NCBI GenBank assembly: GCA_030595795.1
Contig: JAUVCH010000024.1
Location: 1-39,520, forward strand
DNA: 39,520 nucleotides
Origin: Gammaproteobacteria bacterium
GTDB taxonomy: Bacteria > Pseudomonadota > Gammaproteobacteria > GCA-001735895
Reading direction: 5' to 3'
The translations under genes were made by a program, and so were the position numbers. Under the pieces are notes generated by a model. The model did not search any database. It was not told the DNA's origin and was given only the letters and a program-made list of their open reading frames with translations. Shown piece after piece: positions 2-7,318 of the stretch (the stretch's first letter is position 1; every line of letters starts with the position of its first letter).

Positions 2-592
2 GCCTACTTCGTTTCTTCCTGTCTCGCAGATATGGGGACCGTCCACTGGCTGGAAGGTGGAACTCTTCTGGGCGCTGTACGAGAAAATGGCAACCTGCTG
101 GCCTGGGAAGACGATGTCGATATCTCATTCTTGTTAGACGACCAGTCAACCTGGATTTCGGTCGTCAAAGGCATCTCCGATCGCGGTAAGCGCCACGGAT
201 ATTTCGTGGAAGTAAGCGAGAACAGTGCGTATCTGGGTGTCTCCTACGACCGCCCACAGCCATGGCCTTTCAGATGGGAACGATACCGAATGCGCGGGGA
301 AATCCGGCTAGACCTGGTCGCCTACCGGCGCGCCGTGAGCCATGGCCAGTCCGTCCTTGAAAGGCAAACCCACAAGGGAGTTTTGCCTATGACCGAAAGT
401 GGATGGTATGGCATGCCTGAAGACATGGTGCTGCCGACCTCAACCATTCGATTTCTTAACGATGACATCCCTTGCCCGAATCAACCTCAGTCTTACTTGC
501 GCAACATCTATGCTGATTATCAGAAAGTTGAACTCACCTATGTGAATTCAAAAGCAGCTGAGGCCCGGCGTTCAGCCGACGAAATATCATAA
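2..592 (+). CDS. LicD-family phosphotransferase-like protein (5' partial)
   Basis: The reading frame is open from base 2, so the true start lies before the window. What is visible is 196 residues. The stretch HWLEGGTLLGAVRENG, followed by AWEDDVDIS, is the signature of the LicD/fukutin family, with the GTLLG motif and the acidic D-D-x-D metal site. Family members transfer phosphocholine or similar phospho-groups onto surface glycans, so a role in decorating cell-surface polysaccharide is inferred. No signal peptide or membrane segment is visible in the part present. A perfect 8-bp inverted repeat overlaps the stop codon. The gene converges on the deacetylase-like gene downstream, with about 110 bp between them. 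Substrate cannot be told. Confidence 0.75.
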   Translation, partial: AYFVSSCLADMGTVHWLEGGTLLGAVRENGNLLAWEDDVDISFLLDDQSTWISVVKGISDRGKRHGYFVEVSENSAYLGVSYDRPQPWPFRWERYRMRGEIRLDLVAYRRAVSHGQSVLERQTHKGVLPMTESGWYGMPEDMVLPTSTIRFLNDDIPCPNQPQSYLRNIYADYQKVELTYVNSKAAEARRSADEIS

Positions 593-1842: not shown

Positions 1843-3519
1843 ATGTTAATGGTATTTTTATCCGTAGCCGCTTTGATAGCCGCCGCCGTACTCGCTAAAA
1901 GATCATTATTTAGTCGCCCTCTGTATGACCGCATTTTAAAAGGCTCGTTAGTTATATTCGCTTTAATTGGGTTTTTATCGCGCTCATTTGTGATTGTCGA
2001 TGGTAACGAGATTGGTGCGTTGAAACGGATCTACCTTGGCGATAATTTGCCGTCGGGGCGGATCATTGCTCTGGATGGACAAAAAGGCCCACAGGCTGAA
2101 ATTCTTGGCCCCGGATTTCATCTTAAATTATTCGTACGCGTCCTGTACGATGTGGAATATTTCCCGGTGCAGGAAATACCCGAAGGGCAATATGGACTAA
2201 TCCTGACTACTGATGGAAGGTCAATTGACGAGGGCGATTATTTGGCAAATCCCTGGACTGATGGCGAGGAGGATAAAATGCTCGATGCCACTTACTTCCT
2301 GGAAAATGGTGGTCAGAAAGGTCCTCAATTCAACGTGCTTAAACCAGGCAAGTACCGAATTAACCCCTACTTATTCAGACTTAAAAAGTTGCCCGCAACT
2401 GATGTTCCGACCGGTCATGTCGCGGTTATTCGAAGTAATGTCAAAACATCTATTGGGGAATGCCCTAATCCGTCAATTACGGTTGGCACTGCGGATAATA
2501 CGGTCGCATTACCGCTGGTGCCGAAAGGTTGTGTCGGTGTCTGGGAGTTACCCATCCCGCCAGGGCGTTATTACTTAAATGAAAAAGCATTTGTTACAAC
2601 AATTATTCCAACCCGACTACAGACCTGGGTGTACAAAGGCGGTTATACCGCCAGACGGATTAATCTAACGGTATCTGACGAAGGCAAAATAACTCAGCAG
2701 GAAATTTCCGAAAAAATTGCCGTACCACCTAATGCCGCAGACAAAGCGATTAATGTACGTGTCGAAGGTTGGACCGTGCCGGTCGATATGCGCATTGTTG
2801 TTGCGGTTAATCCGGCTCACGCTGCCAAGGTTGTCGCTTCGGTCGGTGGTCTTGTACAGGTGGAAGATAATATTATTACCCCTGCGATTCGGGATATTTT
2901 GCGCACCATCGGTGGTCAGCCCGGACGAAAGGTGCTCGACTTTATCGAGAAGCGTGCGGAAATTGTCGCCGCGGTCGAAAAGGCCATCGTGCCAGAAGGG
3001 CTCAAGGCAGGTGTTACTATTCAGGAAGTGAGAATGGGCGAACCTGCGATTCCGCCGGAGCTGCTAGTAGCAACACTTCGTGAGCAGCTGGCAATCCAGT
3101 TACAGGCGACTTACAAAAAGGAACAGGATGCACAGCGAGAACGTATTAAAGTTGAGCGTGAACGCGCGACTGCAGACCAGCAGGCAACACTGGTAGCCGC
3201 CGAAATCCAGAAAAAAGCTGCCGAATTCACCAAGGAACAACTGCGATTATTAGGTGAAGGCGAAAAACTCAAGCTACTCGAAATAGCGAAAGGTCAGGAA
3301 GCTCAGGCATTAGTTCTGGGTAAGAGAGCCGCGCTACAACTGGCCGCACTAGAGAAGATTCTCGAAGCTGCCAAACAAAACGATAAAATAGTCAAAGTAC
3401 CTATGGTGCAGGTAATCGGCTCCGAGGCAGGAACTTTTGAAGGGGCTGCGGCGATACTAGGTTCGTCGAATATAATTCGTTCGCTCGAAGGGCTAGATAA
3501 ATCGACCGATAAAGAATAG
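1843..3519 (+). CDS. SPFH/band-7 domain membrane protein
   Basis: 558 residues. Two hydrophobic segments (about 1-18 and 32-50) anchor the N-terminus. A long beta-rich region follows, containing two similar modules, each with a GQKGPQ motif (about 80-84 and 157-162) and a Gly-Pro/Lys-Pro-Gly turn. Then comes an SPFH-like region (about 290-410, with VRVEGWTVPVDMRIVV) and an Ala/Glu/Lys/Gln-rich helical stretch (about 410-510) typical of flotillin-like scaffolds. SPFH proteins form large oligomeric cages on membranes and often hold proteases or organise lipids. AGGAG 10 bases before the ATG supports the start. No partner such as an NfeD or FtsH-like protease lies nearby, so the function stays open. 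The gene converges on the ProC-like gene with an 8-base gap. Confidence 0.8.
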   Translation: MLMVFLSVAALIAAAVLAKRSLFSRPLYDRILKGSLVIFALIGFLSRSFVIVDGNEIGALKRIYLGDNLPSGRIIALDGQKGPQAEILGPGFHLKLFVRVLYDVEYFPVQEIPEGQYGLILTTDGRSIDEGDYLANPWTDGEEDKMLDATYFLENGGQKGPQFNVLKPGKYRINPYLFRLKKLPATDVPTGHVAVIRSNVKTSIGECPNPSITVGTADNTVALPLVPKGCVGVWELPIPPGRYYLNEKAFVTTIIPTRLQTWVYKGGYTARRINLTVSDEGKITQQEISEKIAVPPNAADKAINVRVEGWTVPVDMRIVVAVNPAHAAKVVASVGGLVQVEDNIITPAIRDILRTIGGQPGRKVLDFIEKRAEIVAAVEKAIVPEGLKAGVTIQEVRMGEPAIPPELLVATLREQLAIQLQATYKKEQDAQRERIKVERERATADQQATLVAAEIQKKAAEFTKEQLRLLGEGEKLKLLEIAKGQEAQALVLGKRAALQLAALEKILEAAKQNDKIVKVPMVQVIGSEAGTFEGAAAILGSSNIIRSLEGLDKSTDKE

Positions 3520-3527
3520 AACTAAAT

Positions 3528-4319
3528 TTATTTAGCGTCGCTAGTCTGGTTGAGCTTATCGCTTAGTAACTGACAGGCCTGTTGCCAGGGCTCGAATGCG
3601 TCATGCTCTTTGAGCAGATCGAGCCCAAGTTTGGAAAAAGTGCCGTCAGTGGCAATTGCTTCGGCGATTTCACCCGCTGATCTGGCTTTATCCTGTAAGG
3701 CTAGGCTGGAGGCACCTTTTGCCATACCCAGCACTAGCTCTGACGCCAATTCGGTTGACAGGAAATGGCTACTAGTGGCCTGGATTAATTCGTTAAATAG
3801 TTCGAAATACCAGGTATAGACACAGGCGATAATACTGCCCTGATCAAACGCGGCTTCACTGTCTGCAATAACGCTATTACCACAATAATTGAATAAATCA
3901 CCAACTACAGGATGATGAGGAAAAATTAGTGTGGGACTGGCTCCCGCCTGTGCACTATTAACCGGCATGGCACGTACGATATGGACATCCATATCACCTG
4001 TTTGTTCGCGCAGTTTTTCGATACTAACTCCAGCAACAACACTGATGAGTAGATGATTTGACCTGAACTTCAGACTCGCCAATGCATCGAGGCAATGTGC
4101 AGGCCGGGTCGACAGGATAAATTGATCGCAGGCATCGACAACCGCCTGATTACTCTCCATGACTTCGCACTGCCAGTCTGCGGCCAGCTTTTGTGACATG
4201 ACCTGATTACGCGGACTTAACATGATTCGACCCTGGTAGCGGCCTCGCCGAAGTCCTTTGATGGTGTATTCGGCCAGATCTCCGACACCGATAAATCCGA
4301 GATTCTTTGACTCGAGCAT
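3528..4319 (-). CDS. Pyrroline-5-carboxylate reductase-like (ProC-related) oxidoreductase
   Basis: 263 residues. The N-terminus LGFIGVGDLAEYTIKGL is a ProC-type Rossmann NADP-binding loop. LISVVAGVSIEKLRE and VRAMPVNSAQAG also match ProC landmarks (ISxxAGv, xRxMPN). The C-terminal dimerisation domain is divergent: the SGSGPA segment that lines the proline-reductase active site is not seen; the corresponding place reads QATSSHFLSTELA. It is therefore better called a ProC-like imine or ketone reductase than a confirmed proline biosynthesis enzyme. Its ATG follows the TGA of the upstream dioxygenase gene directly, so the two are probably translationally coupled. It is the last gene of a four-gene minus-strand run. 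Confidence 0.7.
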   Translation of the reverse strand: MLESKNLGFIGVGDLAEYTIKGLRRGRYQGRIMLSPRNQVMSQKLAADWQCEVMESNQAVVDACDQFILSTRPAHCLDALASLKFRSNHLLISVVAGVSIEKLREQTGDMDVHIVRAMPVNSAQAGASPTLIFPHHPVVGDLFNYCGNSVIADSEAAFDQGSIIACVYTWYFELFNELIQATSSHFLSTELASELVLGMAKGASSLALQDKARSAGEIAEAIATDGTFSKLGLDLLKEHDAFEPWQQACQLLSDKLNQTSDAK

Positions 4320-5129
4320 TCAGTTATGCCCCCTTACAAAATCGTTTTTCCCTGACTTATCTTTTCCGCGTAAAAGAAATAATGCCCGGTTCGAATAGCC
4401 ATGCGGGGACCCAGCATCCTCCTTGATCTTTCCGCTTTGATGATTATAAAAACTGATCGCCGGCATAATACGAAGCACCAGGCCCATGCGGCGTCGATCC
4501 GACAAGTTTGGCCCGGAGCCGTGCACCAGATAGACATCGTGCAACGAGATTTGTCCTGGTTCGAGTACAATATCGCGCGCCTGGGATAAATCGACCTGAT
4601 TGTCGTCGATGACCTGCGCCAGGGTGTAATCATCGCGGTGTTCGAAGTGATGCGAATATATCTGATGACTTTTGTGCGAACCCGGTATGAATTTCATACA
4701 GCCCTGTTCGGGTGTCGAGCCATCGAGTGATATCCACACGGTGCAGGTTTCTAACGGTTCTATTGGGTAATAGTCACCGTCCTGATGCCAGGGTGTGGCT
4801 TTGCCAACTTTAGCGGGCTTGCCGAATATGGTCATGCCCCAGAGTATAAAATCGCTGCCAATGAGCTGCTCGACCATATCGAGTATTTCAGGGAATTTGG
4901 CAAATTCCAGCCATTCTGGACACCCCTTGATGCCATACGTGCCATTGGCGTCCAGATGAGGTCCGAGTATGAAATCAGCCGAGAATTCCGGATTGGCTTG
5001 ATTGTCTTCGAGCAACTGCTGATAAAGTTGATCGATTCGTTGCAGGGTCGCTTGTGGTAAACGGTAATCAGACGGTATGACAAGGCCATCATTCCGATAT
5101 TGCTCGATTTCGGCGTCGGTAAGCGGCAT
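4320..5129 (-). CDS. Phytanoyl-CoA dioxygenase (PhyH) family hydroxylase
   Basis: 269 residues, the usual size for PhyH enzymes. The non-haem iron facial triad is readable: H115-x-D117 in PWHQDGDYYP and the distal H203 in VYLVHGSGPNLS. The Arg cluster just after it (DRRRMG, about 211-216) is placed to bind 2-oxoglutarate. The enzyme should hydroxylate a small metabolite using O2 and 2-oxoglutarate in the cytoplasm. PhyH relatives act on ectoine, amino acids, lipids and secondary metabolites, and the substrate here is unknown. The gene lies 3 bases after the BKACE gene and abuts the ProC-like gene, so its substrate is likely shared with that pathway. Confidence 0.85.
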   Translation of the reverse strand: MPLTDAEIEQYRNDGLVIPSDYRLPQATLQRIDQLYQQLLEDNQANPEFSADFILGPHLDANGTYGIKGCPEWLEFAKFPEILDMVEQLIGSDFILWGMTIFGKPAKVGKATPWHQDGDYYPIEPLETCTVWISLDGSTPEQGCMKFIPGSHKSHQIYSHHFEHRDDYTLAQVIDDNQVDLSQARDIVLEPGQISLHDVYLVHGSGPNLSDRRRMGLVLRIMPAISFYNHQSGKIKEDAGSPHGYSNRALFLLRGKDKSGKNDFVRGHN

Positions 5130-5132
5130 GGT

Positions 5133-6008
5133 TTAGCGATTAATACCGAGTCTTTTCGACGCCTGGGCTGCTGTCGCTGGTTCGCGGCCTACCTCACGGA
5201 TGATCCTCACCGCGCGCTCGACCAGTAGCAGGTTACTGGCGAATTCACCCTTGTTTAAATAGAGATTATCTTCCAGTCCAACTCGGCAGTTGCCGTTCTG
5301 GCTCGCCGCCTGTGCGACGATTGAAAATTCGAAACGCGAAATACCAAAAGCACTCCAGTTGGCATTCTCGGGTAGCAGGTTCTTCATTACGGTTAGAATC
5401 TCCGGCGTCGCAGGAGACGCGTGGGGAATACCCAGACAGAGCTGGAACATCGGGTCGCCATCGATTAAACCATCCTCAATTAAACTCCGTGCAAACATGA
5501 TGTGACCGGGTTCGAAAACTTCTATTTCAGGTTTGACACCCAATTCCTGAATACGGCGCGCCATTATGCGTAGATGCTCAGGGGTATTCACAAAAATGGT
5601 TTCACCGAAATTGAAGGTACCGACGTCGAGTGTGCAGATATCTGGCATCAGTGCTTCGATATGCTTCAGACGATCCAGGGGTTGGATCAAAGTGGTGCCT
5701 GGACCTCCAACAGCCGCATCGACTTCACCGGGGCTAAAACGCGCGCCCTCGCTGGTGGTCAGATTAATGAGTACATCGCTACCGGAATCGCGAATTCGTT
5801 CGACGACTTCCCGGAACAGTGCCAAATCTCCAGAACGCATTCCAGTGATTGGGTCACGAACATGAATATGCGCAATTGCTGCGCCTGCTTTGCCCGCATC
5901 AATGCAATCATTGGCGATCTGCTCAGGCGTGATCGGGTAGTTCGGATGTTTACCCTGGTTGTTGTGCCCACCGCTTACCGCGCAGGTTAAAATGACTTCG
6001 TTGATCAT
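5133..6008 (-). CDS. Beta-keto acid cleavage enzyme (BKACE, formerly DUF849)
   Basis: 291 residues. The family condenses a beta-keto acid with acetyl-CoA to give acetoacetate and a new acyl-CoA; the founder is 3-keto-5-aminohexanoate cleavage enzyme (Kce). Visible family features are the zinc-binding HIHVRDP at about 47-53, the segment LINLTTSEGA, the barrel strand FGISRFEF and the conserved Glu in CRVGLEDN near residue 247, which supplies the third metal ligand. Substrates across the family include 3-keto-5-aminohexanoate and dehydrocarnitine, and motif reading alone does not choose among them. It sits 7 bases after the DUF3461 gene and 3 bases before the PhyH gene, in one probable operon. 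Confidence 0.87.
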   Translation of the reverse strand: MINEVILTCAVSGGHNNQGKHPNYPITPEQIANDCIDAGKAGAAIAHIHVRDPITGMRSGDLALFREVVERIRDSGSDVLINLTTSEGARFSPGEVDAAVGGPGTTLIQPLDRLKHIEALMPDICTLDVGTFNFGETIFVNTPEHLRIMARRIQELGVKPEIEVFEPGHIMFARSLIEDGLIDGDPMFQLCLGIPHASPATPEILTVMKNLLPENANWSAFGISRFEFSIVAQAASQNGNCRVGLEDNLYLNKGEFASNLLLVERAVRIIREVGREPATAAQASKRLGINR

Positions 6009-6458: not shown

Positions 6459-6821
6459 TTATGGTCTTTCCAGAATGGATTGGCACGCCATGCAATTGGG
6501 TGACTGAGGCTGAACCTGTAATCGAGCGTAGCCTATCGGTTCACCGCACTCGAGACAATAGCCGTATTCTTCTGCTCCAATTCGTTCCAGGGCTGAATTA
6601 ATCAACTTCAGAATAGTATTGGCCTGTTCACGATTAGCGACCGCCATTTGCTGTTGTTGAATCGCATCGATACGTGAAACTCGCCCCACCGATTGCTGAT
6701 CCAGGGTGACCGGTGCAGTGCTTTGTTGACTATCCTGCAGTTGCTGTTCTAGAGCCTGTTTTTGACCTTTTAGCTCTTGGGCAAGCTCTTCGATCTGGTT
6801 AGCGGTCAGTTCCTGATTCAT
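6459..6821 (-). CDS. DksA/TraR-type C4 zinc-finger protein
   Basis: 120 residues from the ATG at 6821. The C-terminal finger has C89-x2-C92, a 17-residue spacer and C110-x2-C113 (YCLECGEP to NCMACQS), the spacing seen in DksA. Before it lies a Gln/Glu-rich helical hairpin region (about 1-80). DksA-type proteins enter the RNA polymerase secondary channel and change promoter choice. This one is shorter than E. coli DksA (151 residues) and resembles the short paralogues. A longer in-frame reading to 6959 would overlap the divergent HIT gene and adds residues unlike the family, so the internal start is preferred, although no strong Shine-Dalgarno is visible before it. Confidence 0.8.
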   Translation of the reverse strand: MNQELTANQIEELAQELKGQKQALEQQLQDSQQSTAPVTLDQQSVGRVSRIDAIQQQQMAVANREQANTILKLINSALERIGAEEYGYCLECGEPIGYARLQVQPQSPNCMACQSILERP

Positions 6822-6901
6822 AAAGCGAATGTTTGTGGAGATGATATGATGAGCGTAGTGTAGAGTAATCCATAATTTACGAACAGGATAAACAAAAGGA
6901 A

Positions 6902-7318
6902 ATGGCCGATATCCATCCGCAATTACTGAATGACTGTCGTGTGCTGGGGCGCTTTTCACTGTCGCATTTATTGTTATCGAACGACTCGAATTATCCCTGG
7001 TTTATTCTCGTTCCAGACCGGGAAGGCATTAGCGAGATATTCCAGTTGCCCGACCAGGATCAAGCGCAGTTACTCGCCGAGTCTTCACTATTGTCGGAGC
7101 ACTTAATGTCACGCTTCAAAGGTGATAAATTAAACGTGGCGGCTTTAGGTAATGTGGTGCCACAGTTACACCTTCATCATATCGTACGTTTCCGTACAGA
7201 CTCTGTCTGGCCTGCACCGATTTGGGGCGAAGTGGAAGCCAGGCCTTATAGCGAGGCTGAACTGTCAAAGCTAATGCAACAACTGGATATCGAGGTATTG
7301 CCAGGTTTCACCCTATAG
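6902..7318 (+). CDS. HIT-domain protein
   Basis: 138 residues. The core reads VVPQLHLHHIVRF, the histidine-triad strand, with Gln in place of the first His of the classical H-x-H-x-H pattern. That variant is common in a group of proteobacterial HIT proteins. The N-terminal FILVPDREGISEIFQL is the usual strand and helix before it. HIT enzymes hydrolyse or transfer nucleotide phosphates such as dinucleoside polyphosphates and AMP-lysine. The exact reaction here is unknown. AAAGGAA directly before the ATG supports the start. The gene ends 7 bases before the EEP-family gene, and both are probably one transcript. Confidence 0.85.
   Translation: MADIHPQLLNDCRVLGRFSLSHLLLSNDSNYPWFILVPDREGISEIFQLPDQDQAQLLAESSLLSEHLMSRFKGDKLNVAALGNVVPQLHLHHIVRFRTDSVWPAPIWGEVEARPYSEAELSKLMQQLDIEVLPGFTL

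Follow-up and report, generated by a model that had tools for sequence, protein, structure and literature searches.

The locus under study is a run of three genes on a 39,520-nucleotide contig (JAUVCH010000024.1, assembly GCA_030595795.1) of a gammaproteobacterium; this whole contig is referred to as the window and was read gene by gene up to 12.6 kb. The host assembly (G000) is a 4.12 Mb draft of 189 contigs, 92% complete, of which the window is one. The genes encode a beta-keto acid cleavage enzyme (BKACE), a PhyH-family Fe(II)/2-oxoglutarate dioxygenase and a divergent P5C-reductase-like (P5CR-like) NAD(P) oxidoreductase (Table 1). An earlier note, made from the sequence alone, had described three abutting genes with gaps of 3 bases (BKACE/PhyH) and 0 bases (PhyH/P5CR-like), and these were confirmed as intact open reading frames (ORFs). 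The families that it named, BKACE, 2-oxoglutarate dioxygenase and ProC-like, were also recovered, the first two by Pfam (E = 4.8e-89 and 298.8 bits against a gathering score of 24.8 for BKACE; E = 1.4e-29 for PhyH) and the third by fold (AlphaFold/Foldseek). Chance ORFs were excluded because each of the three genes has orthologs in sibling species. Overlooked by the note was a DUF3461 gene lying 7 bases upstream of BKACE, which may open the transcription unit; this gene stands before BKACE in two related genomes as well (Table 1) but not in a third (G009). A scan of promoters and terminators returned 1 promoter-like site against 4.9 expected and 3 terminator-like sites against 3.2 expected.

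Table 1. Genes of the locus and its surroundings, with positions in the window
Feature	Positions	Strand	Remarks
BKACE	6008-5133	minus	291 aa, ATG start, intact ORF; Pfam PF05853
PhyH-family Fe(II)/2-oxoglutarate dioxygenase	5129-4320	minus	269 aa, ATG start, intact ORF; Pfam PF05721
Divergent P5C-reductase-like NAD(P) oxidoreductase	4319-3528	minus	263 aa, ATG start; second copy in genome
DUF3461 protein, possible first gene of the unit	6402-6016	minus	Assigned by Pfam; same order in G021 and G010
Small, presumably DksA/TraR-like protein	6459-6959	minus	Marks the opposite flank of the PhyH/P5CR-like pair in many relatives
Histone-deacetylase-family (HDAC) protein	704-1699	minus	Downstream landmark of the locus
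SPFH/Band 7 protein	1843-3519		Converges on the operon end
Short LicD-family protein	32-592		E = 6.9e-10

Orthologs were sought in 41 genomes of the order, 31 of them in the window's genus (its own included). The Fisher tests reported here ignore phylogeny and the incompleteness of the metagenome-assembled genomes (MAGs; 62-100% complete). BKACE orthologs (at least 81% identity) were present in 26/31 genus genomes, PhyH orthologs (at least 74%) in 19/31, two of them partial or split, and P5CR-like orthologs (at least 51%) in 20/31, with a 25% relative in G008. The 10 non-genus genomes of the order held no ortholog of any of the three that reaches these identities; a BKACE of 44-45% occurs in two of them. 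No BKACE above 56% was found outside the genus among 369 class and 398 phylum genomes sampled, and none above 53.4% among the 40 plasmid matches listed. P5CR-like relatives on named contigs were from MAGs of gammaproteobacteria, of which two bear the labels Thiotrichaceae and Leucothrix.

The earlier note had grouped the three genes as one operon and made their conservation together a condition of its reading, which was checked. All three were adjacent in only 2/31 genus genomes, G000 and G021, and the P5CR-like gene of G021 ends at the contig edge after 183 residues. The BKACE-PhyH-P5CR-like trio is not a conserved unit across species. PhyH and P5CR-like genes were adjacent in 17/31 genus genomes (these two and 15 others), and in the 15 others BKACE, where present, was located elsewhere. 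Both genes of the pair occurred in 17 of the 31 genomes, one alone in 2 and 3 and neither in 9 (Fisher p = 0.0005, uncorrected for relatedness). PhyH and the P5CR-like gene are a linked pair and probably the wider-spread functional unit.

The region upstream of the HDAC gene varies by species and holds the pair, BKACE with the pair, BKACE with the P5CR-like gene, the P5CR-like gene alone or BKACE alone. BKACE abuts the P5CR-like gene directly in G009 and G010. A tree of the HDAC gene was built from 24/31 genus genomes and 3/6 other-genus matches (bootstrap not fully settled). The four species with BKACE beside the P5CR-like gene (G000, G009, G010 and G021) form one clade in this tree (support 98/92), and the arrangement therefore most likely arose once. 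As a trio, the genes represent a local rearrangement, in which real genes of ordinary families stand in a lineage-specific order.

The Zn ligands H47, H49 and E246 of the window's BKACE align with H48, H50 and E247 of BsfD, which with 3c6c is its nearest structure-bearing relative (PDB 9zsc). Arg90 aligns gap-free with BsfD Arg91 and Phe165 with BsfD Phe166. According to the BsfD preprint (PMC12871164), Arg91 lies close to the phosphonate, and in the other BKACEs characterised so far the loop is shorter and lacks a basic residue at this place. BKACE groups G4 and G5 are described in PMC4922564 as taking negatively and positively charged substrates, respectively, with promiscuity between groups noted.

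Residue 90 was read from an alignment of 66 BKACE rows, in which two pairs are the same gene (L061 = L102, L063 = L133). It was Arg in 25/25 genus orthologs. The 41 non-genus rows comprised 8 Arg, 1 Val, 30 Asp and 2 Glu, with Arg in 8/9 non-genus members of the clade of the window's BKACE. An unrooted tree, with 7/25 genus rows included, parted 16 Arg/Val rows from 32 Asp/Glu rows (100/100). Flanks extended to at most ∼1.5 kb for L036-L064 and L181-L205 and were larger for L102, L105, L106, L131, L133 and seven plasmid regions, fetched from the 40 BKACE matches listed. A carnitine-dehydrogenase homolog lay in the fetched flank of 29/32 Asp/Glu rows versus 0/34 Arg/Val rows (20/23 versus 0/31 with the small flanks only). 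The larger regions (n = 22: the window, nine other Arg/Val BKACEs and twelve genus BKACEs) held a single distant homolog (L206), 29-32% identical and ∼7 kb from an Arg-type BKACE, and the whole window held none. The window's BKACE thus shows neither part of the carnitine-type marker, an acidic residue 90 and a carnitine-dehydrogenase neighbour.

Among named members, Asp/Glu-type BKACEs adjoin a gene annotated as carnitine 3-dehydrogenase (Agrobacterium fabrum, Paracoccus) or lie beside a 3-hydroxyacyl-CoA dehydrogenase gene accompanied by one for carnitinyl-CoA dehydratase or enoyl-CoA hydratase (Parasedimentitalea, Aminobacter). Three of the seven plasmid regions, which were chosen before residue 90 was known, were Arg-type. 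Arg-type BKACEs neighboured a tripartite tricarboxylate substrate-binding protein, an SDR and an amidohydrolase in Cupriavidus necator NH9, and an NRPS/PKS gene in Sinorhizobium mexicanum. In L208 and L209 the neighbours, read by eye from the sequence, look like genes of tricarboxylate or TRAP transporters.

Since Arg90 aligns with BsfD Arg91, the sister clade carries Asp/Glu, nearly always beside a carnitine-dehydrogenase homolog, and groups G4 and G5 differ in substrate charge, the window's BKACE probably takes an anionic rather than an amino- or betaine-type beta-keto acid. The useful outcome is a one-residue marker, Arg versus Asp/Glu at position 90, which sets the Arg clade apart from the BKACEs that neighbour a carnitine-dehydrogenase homolog, as far as the aligned rows go. 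The split therefore makes substrate charge testable for enzymes annotated '3-keto-5-aminohexanoate cleavage protein'.

Phe165 occupies the position of Kce Tyr145 and was present in 66/66 rows, carnitine-type included. This runs counter to the preprint, which gives Tyr as the residue of all BKACE sequences at this position and links the Tyr-to-Phe change to the new chemistry of BsfD (PMC12871164). With Phe in all 66 rows the change does not mark BsfD chemistry in this branch, and as non-discriminating it was rejected as a sign of it. Two features tied to BsfD in the preprint are thus more widely shared in this BKACE branch.

The host genome encodes two further BKACEs, in L105 and L106 (G000:C136 and G000:C58); their identities to that of the window are 50% and 46%. 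Each sits with carnitine-dehydrogenase-like and crotonobetainyl-CoA-hydratase-like genes (best NCBIfam matches, all below cut-off), and both clusters also contain acyl-CoA dehydrogenase and CoA-ligase genes (assigned by eye in L105). The dehydrocarnitine role is probably taken by these two enzymes, because two separate carnitine-type clusters, each with its own BKACE, occur in the same genome. Dehydrocarnitine cleavage by the window's BKACE was rejected on the grounds of these clusters and of Arg90.

The iron triad of PhyH (H115-x-D117 and H203) was invariant in 20 aligned rows; the HxD...H motif usually points to a hydroxylase-type rather than a halogenase-type enzyme. The AlphaFold model of PhyH had a mean predicted local distance difference test (pLDDT) score of only 39. 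The P5CR-like protein matched F420_oxidored in Pfam (1.8e-08), with P5CR_dimer below cut-off, and fell short of the cut-off in all six P5CR-type NCBIfam models that it matched (among them TIGR00112, 89.8 versus 196.75; NF005063, 127.3 versus 254). Its AlphaFold model (mean pLDDT 90.3) returned P5C reductases as all of the first 50 Foldseek matches, with a query template-modelling score of 0.77-0.87, and retention of the P5C reductase fold is supported by this model. Of the 'imine reductase' in the earlier note, the ProC-like fold stands; the reductase role was an assumption, given the scores below the six cut-offs.

The closest named plasmid relatives of the P5CR-like protein among the matches listed were rhizobial (Rhizobium, Mesorhizobium) proteins of the PRK06476/NF005063 type at 32-35% identity, with further proteins of this type at 29-31% in Shinella and Neorhizobium. 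Their neighbours include GntR regulators and amino-acid- or ectoine-type transporters. Ten of the 25 matches were fetched as regions. Six of the ten (L219-L222, L225, L228) hold rhizobial clusters of an ectoine-like catabolic type, in which the P5CR-like gene accompanies the ectoine-type transporter genes ehuABCD, a Xaa-Pro peptidase family protein, an amidase, aspartate dehydrogenase and GntR. Two Shinella relatives (∼30%; L223, L226) lie near GntR, a branched-chain amino-acid transporter and a cobalamin-dependent protein; one from Neorhizobium lies by GntR and a branched-chain amino-acid transporter, and one from Pantoea by efflux genes. By analogy with these remote relatives, the contexts suggest that the P5CR-like family acts on amino-acid-like substrates.

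Two genus genomes carry further P5CR-like genes of their own setting. In G008 (L132 571-4081, G008:C52) a PhyH ortholog, a 591-aa protein with a C-terminal B12-binding domain and the 25%-identical P5CR-like gene lie in a row, which is a second, separate pairing of PhyH and P5CR-like functions. In L127 (G021:C139) the C-terminal part of a second P5CR-like copy is followed by genes read by eye as a GntR-like regulator, a branched-chain-type ABC transporter, aconitase-family genes and an isocitrate-lyase/phosphoenolpyruvate (PEP)-mutase-family gene.

The (DUF3461-)BKACE-PhyH-P5CR-like run is tentatively read as a small, lineage-specific operon with a catabolic role in an uncultured genus of gammaproteobacteria, with the three enzymes acting in turn, and this reading is given somewhat less than an even chance. 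It is supported by the gaps of 3 and 0 bases, the abutment of BKACE and the P5CR-like gene in one clade, the co-occurrence of PhyH and the P5CR-like gene, the second pairing of these functions in G008 and the residue-90 evidence on substrate charge. Gene order, families, catalytic residues, the clade and the residue-90 split were observed; the substrate, the order of the reactions, the direction of the P5CR-like step and the joint action of the enzymes are inferred, as follows. PhyH would use O2 and 2-oxoglutarate to hydroxylate a small carboxylate, and the P5CR-fold enzyme would oxidise the product with NAD(P) or act on a C=N bond of it. The resulting beta-keto acid would bear a negative charge at its far end, held by Arg90 of BKACE. 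With acetyl-CoA, BKACE would then split this anionic beta-keto acid into acetoacetate and a shortened acyl-CoA. Such a scheme would follow the logic of carnitine breakdown, from hydroxylase through NAD(P) oxidoreductase to BKACE.

Several results weigh against a sequential pathway. BKACE was not associated with either partner among the 31 genus genomes, neither with the P5CR-like gene (both in 18 genomes, one alone in 8 and 2, none in 3; p = 0.32) nor with PhyH (p = 0.35). In 17/26 BKACE genomes it abuts a histidine phosphatase instead, as judged from coordinates. No PhyH was found at E<=1e-30 in G009 and G010, which keep BKACE and the P5CR-like gene together, and PhyH is therefore not essential there. 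G007 and G008 have BKACE in the slot upstream of this HDAC gene too, but without PhyH or the P5CR-like gene beside it; they may not be independent cases, since the BKACE contig of G007 (6% contamination, two HDAC copies) resembles G008. Near the P5CR-like relatives, no BKACE or PhyH match was present in the sequence fetched from the Thiotrichaceae (12.6 kb) and Leucothrix (3.3 kb) contigs or in the ten plasmid regions of ∼17 kb. If the trio as a whole acts on an acidic substrate free of nitrogen, the amino-acid-like contexts of the P5CR-like family are harder to accommodate. No P5CR-fold beta-hydroxy-acid dehydrogenase turned up in the searches made, which were not directed at such an enzyme.

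Nearly as probable is a rival account in which BKACE and the PhyH/P5CR-like pair are unrelated activities under a common promoter, the slot upstream of the HDAC gene being prone to insertion, BKACE and the pair having arrived independently and the tight spacing reflecting only genome compactness. The varying contents of this slot among species and the absence of co-occurrence between BKACE and its partners are as such an account would have them. It is opposed by the abutment of BKACE and the P5CR-like gene, with or without PhyH between them, in all four species of one clade. A more specific form of the sequential pathway, in which the trio mirrors carnitine breakdown, is unlikely as a whole: PhyH would make a beta-hydroxy acid, the P5CR-fold enzyme would be its dehydrogenase, the Arg90 BKACE would cleave the anionic beta-keto acid so formed, and residue 90 would be a charge switch throughout the branch.

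The earlier note had favoured breakdown of an amino acid derivative or osmolyte, in which the beta-keto acid taken by BKACE would be of amino or betaine type. A ProVWX/choline-type ABC transporter (betaine/choline) does lie close to the BKACE cluster in four relatives (L088, L089, L090, L092), two of which (L088, L092) also have a Rieske oxygenase weakly similar to GbcA nearby; RidA is often close as well, and relatives of the P5CR-like protein lie in ehuABCD clusters. This substrate for BKACE is nonetheless disfavoured and the explanation improbable, given Arg in place of Asp/Glu in every genus ortholog, the near absence of carnitine-dehydrogenase homologs from Arg/Val flanks (0/34) and larger regions (1/22, the distant L206), and the two carnitine-type BKACEs of the same genome. 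A pathway on a nitrogen compound is thereby not supported at the BKACE step, and it may still hold upstream for the PhyH/P5CR-like pair, whose rhizobial relatives lie near ehuABCD.

It is very unlikely that BKACE acts as BsfD does, acetylating a phosphonate-bearing beta-keto acid without cleavage, even with 3c6c and 9zsc as the nearest structures and an Arg and long loop common to BsfD. A PEP mutase over cut-off was found in 0/41 genomes (best score in G000, 111 bits), strong matches below cut-off (281-289 bits) were confined to G005, G011, G014, G020 and G028, and the key Phe is shared with carnitine-type rows; a phosphonate pathway is weakened by the PEP mutase result. That the P5CR-like gene makes proline and owes its position to chance is scarcely credible and was rejected: for all its P5CR fold, the SGSGPAY stretch of canonical ProC is replaced by ACVY-TWYF, and a canonical ProC is encoded elsewhere in the genome (G000:C105, 250 bits versus a cut-off of 196.75), as in 38/41 genomes of the order over cut-off.

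In keeping with the earlier note, which knew of no such pathway, searches of open-licence literature listed no paper describing this trio. BsfD of the flavophos cluster (Burkholderia) shares the Zn ligands, the long loop, the Arg that follows strand beta-3 and the Phe in place of Kce Tyr145; it differs in that its cluster is for phosphonate biosynthesis, whereas the window has PhyH and P5CR-like partners and a genome with no PEP mutase over cut-off. The gamma-butyrobetaine/carnitine breakdown island of Arctic SAR11 combines a 2-oxoglutarate dioxygenase, carnitine dehydrogenase and BKACE (PMC12421898), like the logic proposed for the trio, and dehydrogenase and BKACE also occur together in the carnitine clusters of rhizobial and Paracoccus plasmids. 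Unlike these systems, the window has Arg90 instead of Asp/Glu, a dehydrogenase candidate of P5CR fold instead of the 3-hydroxyacyl-CoA dehydrogenase family and, putatively, the opposite substrate charge; the likeness to SAR11 is one of description. The deoxyribonate pathway, also compared by description (PMC6365646), likewise has a dehydrogenase beside BKACE and an acetoacetate route, but its dehydrogenase is an SDR and its substrate a sugar acid. The PRK06476/NF005063-type relatives differ in the absence of PhyH and BKACE from their ten fetched regions.

In the common home of BKACE (L088 = G029:C6:89000-108999; L089, L090, L092) an enoyl-CoA hydratase precedes BKACE, usually with the histidine phosphatase and a second PhyH, and RidA, YCII, UspA, amidase and a HalD-like oxygenase surround it in varying sets. 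Host homologs of the histidine phosphatase (67%) and amidase (65%) of this cluster lie on other contigs, and the other cluster members were absent from those two contigs except for a 48% Rieske fragment match on the phosphatase contig. In the window, the SPFH/Band 7 ORF is separated from the operon end by 8 bases, and this gene adjoins the PhyH/P5CR-like pair in only some relatives (L013, L015, L016). The LicD-family gene lies near the contig start and is possibly truncated.

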